In this document: in pieces, positions 58,400 to 63,391 of the stretch | How the letters are laid out: the number at the start of each line of letters is the position of its first letter | How positions within the stretch are numbered: the stretch's first letter is position 1 | NCBI GenBank assembly: GCA_014879745.1 | Contig: JACSRM010000245.1 | Coordinates: 1-64,000, forward strand | Direction: 5' to 3' | Source of the DNA: Burkholderiaceae bacterium | Lineage (GTDB): Bacteria; Pseudomonadota; Gammaproteobacteria; Burkholderiales; Burkholderiaceae_C | Length of the DNA: 64,000 nucleotides | Notes under the pieces: model-generated | The model's database searches: none | What the model was told of the DNA's origin: nothing | What the model saw: only the letters and a program-made list of their open reading frames with translations | Made by a program: the position numbers and the translations under genes

Positions 58400-58632
58400 C
58401 CTCACGCGGACCCCGTGACCGGGGGGCCGAATCTTCGGCTCGCACGCCGAAGGCTGTCAATATGCAAGCCGCCCACATGCAGGCCGACGATCGCGAATGG
58501 GGTATATCGCCTTGTCGCTGCGTGCCACCGGCCGCCGCATGCGTCGCGATCCTCGGCCCGTTGCCGGCATGCGGGAGGGCGAGGTCGAGGCTTCGGCTTG
58601 GCAGCGCGCGGCGGGCGTCGCATACTCGCCGC

Positions 58633-59355
58633 ATGAGGTGGCAGGGCCGTCTGTGGATCTGGGGGCTGGTGCTGGCATTGGCCGCCGGCTTCGGCTTCGC
58701 GATCTGGCGCGCCCCTGACGCGCGTGAACCGCCGGCCGCAGACCGACCCGCCGCAGCCACGGCACGGATGGCAGCGCCAAAGCAGGCCGCGAACGAGAAC
58801 GAACCGGCCCCGCATGTGCTGGCGCACCCGACGCCAGCCTTGATTCCGCCCGGGATCAGCGCCGACCAATGGGCGGCGCTGCGAAGCGAGTTCGCCGACC
58901 GCCCGGCCGAGTTGCAGCGCCTGGCCGACCATTTCACATTCGCCGACCGGCTCGATCGCTTCCGCTCCGGCCGCAGCGGCGGCCGCAGCGCCGACCAGAT
59001 CGAGTTGGCGCGTGCACTCGACGCCGGCCTCGACGAACGGCTGCGCGAGCGCGAGGTCAGCGCGGCCGAGGCGCGGCTGATCAAGATCGCGGTCCTCGAA
59101 GTGCTGCTCGACGGCGAGGATCAGCGGCGCGATGCGCTCGACCGCTGGGAAGCGTCGCTCGGACCGCCCGCGGCCGATCCGCAGCGCAGCGCCGCCGTGG
59201 CCGACTTCCAGCGCCGCCAGGCGACGATCGTCGCCGCCTGGCGGGCGCTGCCGCCTGAACGGCGCGACCCCCGTGCGCTCGAGAGCGAACTGCAAGCGCT
59301 GCGCGAGAGCAGCTTCGACCCGCCGCAATCCCGAACCGAAGGAGCCCAGCGATGA
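58633..59355 (+). CDS. Uncharacterised membrane-anchored, helix-rich protein coupled to downstream esterase
   Basis: MRWQGRLWIWGLVLALAAGFGFAIW anchor, Pro/Ala linker, charged helical domain; stop overlaps the next ATG. Confidence 0.75.
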   Translation: MRWQGRLWIWGLVLALAAGFGFAIWRAPDAREPPAADRPAAATARMAAPKQAANENEPAPHVLAHPTPALIPPGISADQWAALRSEFADRPAELQRLADHFTFADRLDRFRSGRSGGRSADQIELARALDAGLDERLREREVSAAEARLIKIAVLEVLLDGEDQRRDALDRWEASLGPPAADPQRSAAVADFQRRQATIVAAWRALPPERRDPRALESELQALRESSFDPPQSRTEGAQR

Positions 59356-60623
59356 TCAAGACCTTGCGCCGTATCCGCAGCCGCTGCATCGGGCTCGTGC
59401 TCGCCCTGGCGACGCCGTGGGCTGCGGCGGGCTTCTTCCAGTGGGACATGGTCGAGCTGCCGGCGGCCAGCGGCGCCGCCTGCGGCGACGGCTCGCCGTA
59501 CCGGTTCTTCGTCAACCGCACGCCGCTGTCGAAGAGCTTGGTCGCGGTCTTCGAAGGCGGCGGGGCGTGCTGGGACCAGAACGCCTGTCTCGGCATTGGC
59601 CCGTTGTCGGCCGCCAACCCGAACGGCATCCCGCCCGACTATATGCAGCACCTGAACAATATGGCGGCCAGGGGCCTCGTGACACCATTCAGCGCGCGCA
59701 CCGATCCGTTCCAGAAGGTGCAGACGCAGTCGTGGAATATCGTCTATCTGCCGTACTGCACCGGCGACGTGCACAGCGGTAGCAAGGTCACGGTCTACGA
59801 CGACGCCAACCCCGCCAACCCGCGCACCCAGTACCACCGCGGCCAGGCCAATATCCGCGCCGCCGCGCAATGGCTGCGCGACAACCTCGGCCGGCCGCAG
59901 GACATGTTGCTGACCGGATTCTCGGCCGGCAGTGTCGGCTCCACCGTCACCTACGGCATCGTTCGCGATGCGTTGCAGCCGCGCGGCCGCGCATCGCTGA
60001 TCGCCGACTCCGGACTGCTGATGCAGGCACCGCGCAGCGGCACGCCGGCGCAGTTCCCGTCGCTGCCGCTGCACGAGAAAATCCGCGTCGCCTGGGGCCT
60101 CGACGAGCCGGGCGGGCTGATCACCCACTACGTCGGCTCGCTGCCCGGATTCGACCCCGACAACCTCGGTTCGGTGAACGGCGCGCTCGCCAACCGCTAT
60201 CCGCAGGACCGCTTCACCTTCCTCGCCTTCCAGGCCGATATGAATTTCTCGTCGTTCAGCTACGCGAAGTTCTACGACGATATCGCGAACGCGCCGAACG
60301 ACTTCGTGCGCCGGCAGAATACGCTTGCACGCTGGCAGCCCGACCTCGCGATGCACGCCGCCGACCTCGGTCCGTACAACAACGTCTCGTTCCACCAGGC
60401 GTTCTTTCGCAACTTCAACGAGTCGCACTGCCTGACGATCATCGATTTCTCGGCGACCGGAATCGAAGAGCTCGGCATCCCGAGCATCGCGCCTGTCGTC
60501 GATGCAACGCTCGACCGCGGCGCCGTGACGAAGAACGTCGAGCAGGACCACGTCAGCGACTTTTTCCGGCCGGTGAGCGACGTGATCCGGCTGTTCAAGC
60601 TGCTGACGCGATTGCTCGGCTGA
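59352..60623 (+). CDS. Pectinacetylesterase/Notum-family secreted esterase
   Basis: Signal peptide; VAVFEGGGACWDQNACLGIG; IVYLPYCTGDVHSGS; LLTGFSAGSVGS. Confidence 0.88.
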   Translation: MIKTLRRIRSRCIGLVLALATPWAAAGFFQWDMVELPAASGAACGDGSPYRFFVNRTPLSKSLVAVFEGGGACWDQNACLGIGPLSAANPNGIPPDYMQHLNNMAARGLVTPFSARTDPFQKVQTQSWNIVYLPYCTGDVHSGSKVTVYDDANPANPRTQYHRGQANIRAAAQWLRDNLGRPQDMLLTGFSAGSVGSTVTYGIVRDALQPRGRASLIADSGLLMQAPRSGTPAQFPSLPLHEKIRVAWGLDEPGGLITHYVGSLPGFDPDNLGSVNGALANRYPQDRFTFLAFQADMNFSSFSYAKFYDDIANAPNDFVRRQNTLARWQPDLAMHAADLGPYNNVSFHQAFFRNFNESHCLTIIDFSATGIEELGIPSIAPVVDATLDRGAVTKNVEQDHVSDFFRPVSDVIRLFKLLTRLLG

Positions 60624-60702: not shown

Positions 60703-61383
60703 TCAGGGCTTGGCCGTCTGCGAAATCGGCTGCGCGGGGCTCGTCTTGGTCGTCACGACGGTGGCGGACTTGCCGCCGCTGCCGGTCACCGTCGACGTCG
60801 ACCCGGAGTCGGTTCGCTGCGATTCACGCGTCACGACCTGGCCGTTGGACAGCGTCGTCGTGCCGCTGCCCTGCCCGGTGCGTTCGGACTGTCGCGTTTG
60901 CGTCTCGCCGCTTGCGTTCGTCTTCGTGACCGTGGTCTGACCGTCGCCGCGCTCGACCTCGCGCGTCGTCGTCTTGCCGCCGGCGCCGGTGATCGTGGTC
61001 GTCGCCGTGCCGTCGGCGCGGGTCGTTGTCACGTTGGCCGTCCTGCCGCCTTCGCCGGTGATGGTGGTATTGGACGTGCCGCCGCCGCGCGTCGTCTCGG
61101 CCGTCGCGGTTCTGCCGTTCGCCCCTTGGAGGGTCGACGTCGAGCCGGTATCGGTGCGCTGTGTCTCGCGCGTGCGGGTCTTGCCGTTGTCGCGGGTGCG
61201 GGTGACCTCGGTCGTGTCCTTGTTGCGATTCACATCGCGGGTGTGGGTGCGGCCTTCCGACCCGGTCACGGTTCTGTGACGCTCGCCGGCGTGGGCCTGG
61301 CCCGCCGCGAGCATCGTCAGCGCGGCGACGGCCAGGGGGGCGGCCCGCAAAGATCGAACGGTGCTGCGTTGCGAAATCTTCAT
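60703..61383 (-). CDS. Secreted Thr/Arg/Gly-rich tandem-repeat protein
   Basis: Signal peptide ending AGQAHA; repeats such as GRTANVTTTRADGTATTTITGAG and GKTTTREVERGDGQTTVTKTNAS. Confidence 0.8.
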   Translation of the reverse strand: MKISQRSTVRSLRAAPLAVAALTMLAAGQAHAGERHRTVTGSEGRTHTRDVNRNKDTTEVTRTRDNGKTRTRETQRTDTGSTSTLQGANGRTATAETTRGGGTSNTTITGEGGRTANVTTTRADGTATTTITGAGGKTTTREVERGDGQTTVTKTNASGETQTRQSERTGQGSGTTTLSNGQVVTRESQRTDSGSTSTVTGSGGKSATVVTTKTSPAQPISQTAKP

Positions 61384-61500: not shown

Positions 61501-63081
61501 TCACGGCCGATTGACGGCATTCCAGGCCGCGCCAACCGCGATCGACTCCGGCGAACCCGCGCCATACAGGTCGTCGGCCGCCTGGATCGTTGCCGATCGC
61601 GCGCTCGCGTAGTTCGACGACGAAGTCATGTAGACCGTCAGCGCGCGATACCAGATGTGCTGCGCCTTGTCGCGGCCGATGCCGACCAGTGTGCCGGTGC
61701 CGGTGGCGACCCGGGTATTCGAGGCGATGCAGGTCGGACTCGGATTGCCGCCCGTCGTGCCCTCGGCGAGCAGGTAGTAGAAGTGATTGGCGACACCCGA
61801 CGAATAGTGCACGTCGAGGTTGCCGACACCCGGATACCAGCAGTCGGCCGATGCGCCATCGGCGCTCGGCTTGATCATCGAGCGGATGAAGGAATTGCCG
61901 CTCGCGAACAACTTCTCGCCGATCAGGTAGTCGCCCGGATCGTTCGGATTGTTCGCATAGAACTCGACCATCGAGGCGAAGATATCGCTCGTCCCCTCGT
62001 TCAAACCGCCGGACTCGCCCGAATAGATCAGGCCCGCGGTGCGCGACGTCACACCATGCGACATCTCGTGCCCGGCAACGTCGAGCGAAACGAGCGGAAG
62101 GATGCTCGCATTGCCGTCGCCGTAGGTCATGCAGAAGCAGCCGTCGTCCCAGAACGCGTTGGCGTAGTTGCGCTTGTAGTGAACGCGGCTCTTGGCGCCG
62201 GCGCCATCGTTCGCGATCCCGTTGCGACCGAACACGTCGAGGTAGTAGTCCCAGGTCGTCGCGCCACCGTAGTGGGCGTCGACCGCGACCGTTTGACGGT
62301 TCGAGGTGCTGCCATCGCCCCAGGCATTGTCCGCATCCGTGAACGCCTTTCCCCGTCCGAAGCCGCGATTCATCATATCGACCGTCGACGAATTGCCGCG
62401 CGTACTGTCGGTCAATCTGAAACCCGTGCCGGTGGTGATGGAATTGACGCTGACCGTACCGTCGAACAGGCTCTGGCCACTGCCGACGGCCGGCGCGGTC
62501 TGAATCTCGTCCCAGGTATCGAGCACACTCCCCGCCCTGGCGTCGACGATCACGTGCAGCCTGCTCGGCGTGCCATCGTCCCGTTCGCCGGCGAGCGCGA
62601 CGTCCCAGGCCAGCCGCGCCGGTTCGACGCGCGCGTAGACGACGAGTTCGGGTTCCGCGGCGGCGAGATAGCCCGAATGCACCGCACTCGCGGTGGCGGT
62701 CGCGTCGCGCGGCGCGACGCTCGGCCGCAGGTCCACGCTCGGGGCGCGCGACAGCGTCTGCGATACGTTGACGAAGGCCCCGCTGCGACCGCTGTGCACG
62801 ACGAGGTCGCCGCCGACCACGCGCAGGCCCTGGTAGCGCCGCGCAAATCGCACGTGCTGCGCCCCGCCCGCATCGAATACCACGTCGCGCACCTCGAAAC
62901 TGAAGCCGGGTCCGGCCAGCGTTCGCTGCGAGAAGGCGTTGATCGCCTCGCGCGCGCGCGCCACGGCCTCGTCGCGCTCGGCGGCCAGGACCTGCGTTGC
63001 GCCAAGCGCGAAAAGCGCAGCTGCTGCGCCAACGGCAAGGGTGTGGCCGTTCCTGCCGCGGCCTGATCTCGAATCGTTCAC
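61501..63081 (-). CDS. M4 (thermolysin-like) metallopeptidase with propeptide
   Basis: DVAGHEMSHGVTSRTAGLIYSGESGGLNEGTSDIF; FTP-like propeptide; RBS AAGGAG before GTG 63081. Confidence 0.95.
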   Translation of the reverse strand: MNDSRSGRGRNGHTLAVGAAAALFALGATQVLAAERDEAVARAREAINAFSQRTLAGPGFSFEVRDVVFDAGGAQHVRFARRYQGLRVVGGDLVVHSGRSGAFVNVSQTLSRAPSVDLRPSVAPRDATATASAVHSGYLAAAEPELVVYARVEPARLAWDVALAGERDDGTPSRLHVIVDARAGSVLDTWDEIQTAPAVGSGQSLFDGTVSVNSITTGTGFRLTDSTRGNSSTVDMMNRGFGRGKAFTDADNAWGDGSTSNRQTVAVDAHYGGATTWDYYLDVFGRNGIANDGAGAKSRVHYKRNYANAFWDDGCFCMTYGDGNASILPLVSLDVAGHEMSHGVTSRTAGLIYSGESGGLNEGTSDIFASMVEFYANNPNDPGDYLIGEKLFASGNSFIRSMIKPSADGASADCWYPGVGNLDVHYSSGVANHFYYLLAEGTTGGNPSPTCIASNTRVATGTGTLVGIGRDKAQHIWYRALTVYMTSSSNYASARSATIQAADDLYGAGSPESIAVGAAWNAVNRP

Positions 63082-63391
63082 TTCAGTCTCCTTGGTGTGT
63101 AGTTGGTCGTCGTCGCAGCGATCCCCGAATCGGCCCGCAACCTCGTTCTCGGGCTCGGCCATCGCGCCATTCTTGCGGGTGCCGCGGCGCTGCAATGCTA
63201 CAAGCCAGCCACATTCCTTGCATCGCCGCCGGACCGGGAAACCGCCCCCCATCCGCAGCGCCGCCGGTGTGCCTGCCGGGACGCGCAACCGTCCCGATTC
63301 GCGCCGGTAACGTCGCAGTAACAAGGTCGTTTCTAGAGTGCAGTCTCAGCGCGGCATCTTGTCCACCGCGCATCACCCAAGGAGCACCGAA

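Follow-up and report, generated by a model that had tools for sequence, protein, structure and literature searches.

P0001, a membrane-anchored helical protein encoded directly upstream of an exported Notum/pectinacetylesterase (PAE)-family hydrolase, P0002, is placed by profile comparison among the relatives of PlcR, the helper of a Pseudomonas phospholipase. We consider it likely to be a PlcR-type protein, anchored in the membrane and dedicated to the neighboring esterase as its periplasmic chaperone or secretion factor; the esterase would itself be secreted by the type II pathway. Homology and linkage carry this reading, and from them we infer binding of the esterase, a folding or holding activity, the periplasmic location and the export route. 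The two genes lie toward the end of the window, a 64,000-nucleotide stretch of a Burkholderiaceae contig (JACSRM010000245.1), and their features are collected in Table 1.

Layout and expression signals of the gene pair

The preliminary description had placed two coding sequences with an overlapping stop and start at 58633-60623, and both ORFs are in place there on the forward strand, P0001 followed by P0002, with four nucleotides in common. As read from the nucleotide sequence, this ATGA overlap is one of translational coupling. The sigma-70-like promoter upstream of the pair was found once where shuffled sequences would yield 0.1 sites, and it is kept at the same spot just 5' of the start codon in approximately seven of ten homologues. 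Because the promoter ends so close to the partner ATG, the partner mRNA is probably leaderless, and this position supports both the annotated P0001 start and a single promoter for the two genes. The pair is single-copy in the source genome (4.5 Mb in 535 contigs). Two reverse-strand ORFs lie nearby, one (60703-61383) encoding an exported 226-aa protein built of repeats like TVTGSGGKSATVVTT and the other (61501-63324) resembling, as judged by eye, a secreted M4 (thermolysin-like) metalloprotease.

Table 1. Positions of the P0001-P0002 gene pair and its features in the window.
Feature	Position	Strand	Basis
Sigma-70-like promoter TTGGCA-17-CATACT	58598..58626	+	second hexamer ends 6 nt 5' of partner ATG
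PlcR-like membrane-anchored partner P0001, 240 aa	58633..59355	+	ORF; family by profile comparisons
N-terminal membrane helix of P0001, residues 4-25	58642..58707	+	hydrophobic stretch; AF2 helix 4-25
Pro/Ala-rich linker of P0001, residues 26-76, mostly disordered	58708..58860	+	pLDDT 50-69 over residues 21-70
All-helical domain of P0001, residues 77-228, seven helices	58861..59316	+	AF2; domain-only HMM matches
Shine-Dalgarno AAGGAG of esterase gene, inside partner gene	59339..59344	+	sequence
ATGA stop/start overlap, 4 nt	59352..59355	+	P0001 TGA 59353-59355; P0002 ATG at 59352
Exported Notum/pectinacetylesterase-family hydrolase P0002, 423 aa	59352..60623	+	PF03283, NOTUM sequence matches, Notum fold
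Sec-type signal peptide of P0002, residues ~1-26	59352..59429	+	sequence, no clear twin-arginine motif; low pLDDT over residues 1-30
Candidate nucleophile Ser191 in GFSAGS	59922..59924	+	invariant in 31 homologues; aligns with Notum SAGG serine

P0002 is an exported Notum/pectinacetylesterase-family enzyme

The assignment of P0002 to an exported Notum/PAE-family esterase, made earlier from the motifs GFSAGS (residues 189-194) and WDQNACLGIG (residues 74-83), holds at the level of both profile and fold. A profile search matched P0002 to PF03283 at E 3.4e-18 (66.3 bits against a cut-off of 26.6), NOTUM sequences were matched as well, and the AF2 model (pLDDT 87, pTM 0.87) aligned in Foldseek with Notum structures at E 1.5e-13 and probability 1.00, with a target-normalised TM of approximately 0.65. 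Among 31 homologues S191, D296 and H359 are invariant, as are Cys44, 73, 79 and 136, and by conservation and motif Asp296 and His359 are the candidates for the other triad positions. A weak match of P0002 to DsbB was dismissed as noise. The pectinacetylesterase/Notum family PF03283 corresponds to CE13 in CAZy.

P0001 has the architecture of a lipase-specific foldase and the homology of PlcR

The membrane anchor, Pro/Ala-rich linker and helical region reported for P0001 all reappear in its AF2 model (mean pLDDT 84), where the helices at residues 77-228 mostly exceed 90 and the linker (residues ~26-70) is of low confidence. The helical domain is the conserved, PlcR-like part of the protein, with E146 invariant, and the membrane anchor is retained with no obvious cleavage site. 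Comparison of the model with the PDB in Foldseek gave no fold match among the matches listed, and thus no structural template backs a chaperone role. A plasmid search with P0001 gave no match, and weak matches of P0001 alone to NF047902 and Crk proteins were set aside as noise.

An anchor, a linker and a helical domain encoded beside a secreted esterase recall the lipase-specific foldases (Lif), an analogy that the preliminary description had drawn while remarking that the Lif sequence motif was not recognised. The architectural part of the analogy stands, but sequence, profile and fold do not follow it. No PF03280 match was found in the 26 partner members at E up to 1; hhalign of the two partner groups against Lif returned probabilities of 0.5% and 0.3%; and no Lif appeared among the PDB fold matches listed for P0001 by Foldseek. 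Lif membership was rejected on these Pfam, hhalign and Foldseek results, and a true lipase-specific foldase (PF03280) is an extremely improbable identity for the partner, for all the similarity of its membrane anchor, Pro/Ala linker and extended helical domain.

A different family emerged from TIGR03398 (plc_access_R), which 20 of the 26 partner proteins match, always below the curated cut-off. Individual scores include 5.2e-18 for L052, over model positions 1-137 of 141, 1.9e-10 for L095 and 2.3e-5 for L030, and the best family member reaches 66 bits against an equivalog cut-off of 99.1 bits. P0001 alone gave no direct match to TIGR03398. It was sought with profiles built from relatives outside its clade, with 200 shuffles as controls. 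The profile of Aquabacterium downstream PAE partners recovered P0001 at E 1e-18 (best shuffle E 26), the profile combining every such relative at 1.7e-23 (best shuffle E 80) and that of partners of LIP lipases at 1.8e-6, the best shuffled controls for these three profiles standing at E 11 or worse; a gammaproteobacterial-only profile recovered it weakly, at E 0.015. The Burkholderiales and gammaproteobacterial partner groups align with each other in hhalign at a probability of 97.5% (E 6.4e-12). Searching the 26 members against Pfam gave nothing above noise. As no member reaches the 99.1-bit cut-off and P0001 lacks a direct match, P0001 is, on the profile evidence, a relative of PlcR and not an equivalog. 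When 399 genomes across the phylum were searched with TIGR03398, unprimed, four matches were returned. Three adjoin a PAE esterase; the fourth (G386) adjoins a LIP secretory lipase, and its genome has no PAE esterase.

The partner is linked to the esterase and diverges with it

The preliminary description had raised the matter of conserved linkage, and the partner does recur beside the esterase in other genomes. With a profile built from three proteins and the best 80 esterase loci as the sample, the partner was found to adjoin the esterase in 26 loci and in three arrangements: upstream (13), downstream on the same strand (11) and convergent (2). Two Burkholderia loci from outside the profile training (L209 and L210) likewise carry it 65-66 bp upstream of the esterase, and 8 of 14 upstream-type loci retain the ATGA overlap. 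The other 54 loci, mostly Aquabacterium paralogues, have no adjacent partner, and orphan copies exist. All 31 esterase genomes checked carry between one and six partner-family members. Across the class, 4 of 369 genomes match, of which the convincing ones are only the source genome and G903, both with the partner beside the esterase; the remaining matches (G922 and G967) were dropped, covering only the membrane helix and linker part. The match in L010 was also dropped, being a response-regulator ORF, and antisense-ORF matches in the HMM iteration (L047, L056, L058 and L069) were left out before the set A2 was built.

The pairing exceeds chance, being conserved in many genomes with the ATGA overlap kept and the promoter conserved. 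A chance neighborhood of genes with unrelated functions would fit the many Aquabacterium esterases that have no adjacent partner, but is scarcely credible in the face of three gene arrangements, the independent Burkholderia cases and co-occurrence in 31 of 31 genomes. The divergence of the partner also follows that of the esterase, with a Mantel r of 0.88 over 34 pairs and 0.91 within Betaproteobacteria, values that are confounded by species relatedness. Tight pairing and co-divergence would look alike if the partner were instead an inhibitor, immunity- or zymogen-like, whose role is to hold the esterase inactive within the cell. We regard such a role as improbable, since the PlcR relatives of known function act in favor of secretion (PMC3601568, PMC2673038) and no data point specifically to inhibition.

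PlcR-like genes adjoin several kinds of secreted enzyme

Other copies of the family were mapped in Aquabacterium-type genomes. Twenty (G386 included) have a LIP lipase (PF03583, E as low as 7e-56) as their immediate neighbor, and several adjoin divergent PAE enzymes. At L154 (3976-6580) a PlcR-like gene lies upstream of a PF04185 phosphoesterase, the sole such relative and the arrangement nearest to PlcH-PlcR in client type. At L153, L157, L159, L161, L163-L165, L167, L168 and L195-L204, the LIP (PF03583) lipase gene is followed directly by the PlcR-like gene. Many unlinked copies sit between genes named by eye as plsY-like and permease genes (L133-L148, L151, L152), and some of these occur as tandem pairs (L134-L136, L139). 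Small exported proteins of ~225-280 aa flank the PlcR-like genes of L155 (2890-3561 and 4720-5430), L160 and L172; one was searched and gave no Pfam match, and these neighbors are a possible further client type.

The LIP-linked copies group in a single clade (97*) when the helical domain is used to build a tree, on which the neighbor labels require 5 changes compared with 48 in shuffles; the tree is a quick one with long branches, and its deep joins are unsure. Since genes of the family adjoin secreted enzymes of no fewer than three unrelated kinds, which cut lipids or esters, the family probably represents dedicated enzyme chaperones as a general class. We lean toward a wider reading as well, in which PlcR would be one branch of a larger and unrecognised family of membrane-anchored periplasmic chaperones, a PlcR-type counterpart of Lif whose branch-specific clients belong to unrelated families (Notum/PAE, LIP and PLC-type) and whose unlinked copies would serve unlinked clients.

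A proposed role in type II secretion of the esterase

The pair may be understood as an operon in which a secreted enzyme is encoded together with a helper dedicated to it. That helper, a PlcR-family (TIGR03398-related) protein, would be tethered through its N-terminal helix to the inner membrane, and its flexible linker would give the helical domain access to the esterase as the latter leaves Sec for the periplasm. P0001 would then make or keep the Sec-exported esterase competent for type II secretion. The T2SS secretin GspD is present in the source genome (595 bits), and pectinacetylesterase-family proteins are listed among the T2SS substrates in Burkholderia (PMC13391677, PMC4713064).

A secretion adaptor that recruits or escorts a self-folding esterase to the type II machinery, and possibly exits with it, would agree with the recovery of PlcR2 and PlcH as a secreted heterodimer (PMC3601568), with the secretin in the genome and with a single helper family serving different enzyme families. 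Co-secretion is disfavored by the membrane anchor, which is retained and lacks an obvious cleavage site, and the tracking of client enzymes by partner subfamilies suggests specific client binding; we consider the adaptor rather unlikely. The dedicated chaperone of the preliminary description is well supported as a membrane-anchored helper, for which linkage, co-occurrence, co-divergence and PlcR homology all argue. A steric role in the strict Lif sense is only one possibility, and targeting for secretion or holding would be equally compatible.

The production of many secreted bacterial lipases and esterases depends altogether on dedicated chaperones, and few of their families have been characterised. 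If the client-dedicated PlcR-type role is true for P0001, a helper so far tied to a single Pseudomonas phospholipase would become a broad family, many "hypothetical" genes beside secreted hydrolases would gain names and testable partners, and the failures that may occur when such enzymes are expressed without a partner would have an explanation.

Comparison with known systems

P0002 shares with the Notum/PAE family (PF03283) its family model, NOTUM sequence matches and the Notum fold, with ~15-18% identity to animal Notum in structural alignments, and we know of no such partner for animal Notum. The partner shares with Lif/LipB/LimK (PF03280) an N-terminal anchor, a Pro/Ala linker, a helical periplasmic domain and a gene that overlaps or closely adjoins that of a secreted esterase, but no likeness in sequence or profile, nor in fold among the matches listed, joins the two families.

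Another comparable class is that of the membrane-bound T2SS chaperones, which includes CpaB, described as having an SRPBCC-type domain, and which was defined by layout alone, without family or homology (PMC4713064). P0001 has in common with this class the N-terminal membrane helix and the operon with a secreted hydrolase. The 2016 list of putative members (PMC4713064 Table 1) contains the membrane-anchored BURPS668_1220 (TM 7-24), which lies 62 bp away from the gene of a B. pseudomallei pectinacetylesterase, and BURPS668_0360, whose distance to a nonhemolytic PLC is 46 bp; the Burkholderia pairs at L209 and L210, with their 65-66 bp spacing, are arranged like BURPS668_1220 and its neighbor. 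The preliminary description had believed a helper for a bacterial Notum-like hydrolase not to be established. Given this candidate list the idea is not wholly new, but the PlcR link and the LIP clients did not appear in the literature searched. Neither a PlcR-PAE or PlcR-LIP pair, nor the PlcR relationship, nor a conservation analysis was found in that literature, most subscription journals being outside its reach. What this analysis adds is the family identity, the breadth of clients and the conservation; the chaperone notion itself already exists as a candidate list.

The characterised system joined to the partner by homology is PlcR. PlcR2 is a 17-kDa chaperone of P. aeruginosa PlcH and is secreted with it as a heterodimer via Tat and Xcp (PMC3601568); secretion of PlcH needs PlcR, and PlcH was, according to the same paper, the only one of its own family with a known PlcR-like partner (PMC2673038). 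The partners described here share homology with PlcR over most of the 141-position model, and both are encoded beside a secreted lipolytic enzyme. In contrast to PlcR, the partner family keeps a membrane anchor and a long linker and is often encoded upstream, and the client of PlcR is a phospholipase C whereas the neighbor of P0001 is a Notum/PAE alpha/beta hydrolase. PlcH travels by Tat, whereas the P0002 signal is Sec-like, so the mechanism by which the two helpers serve their clients may differ.
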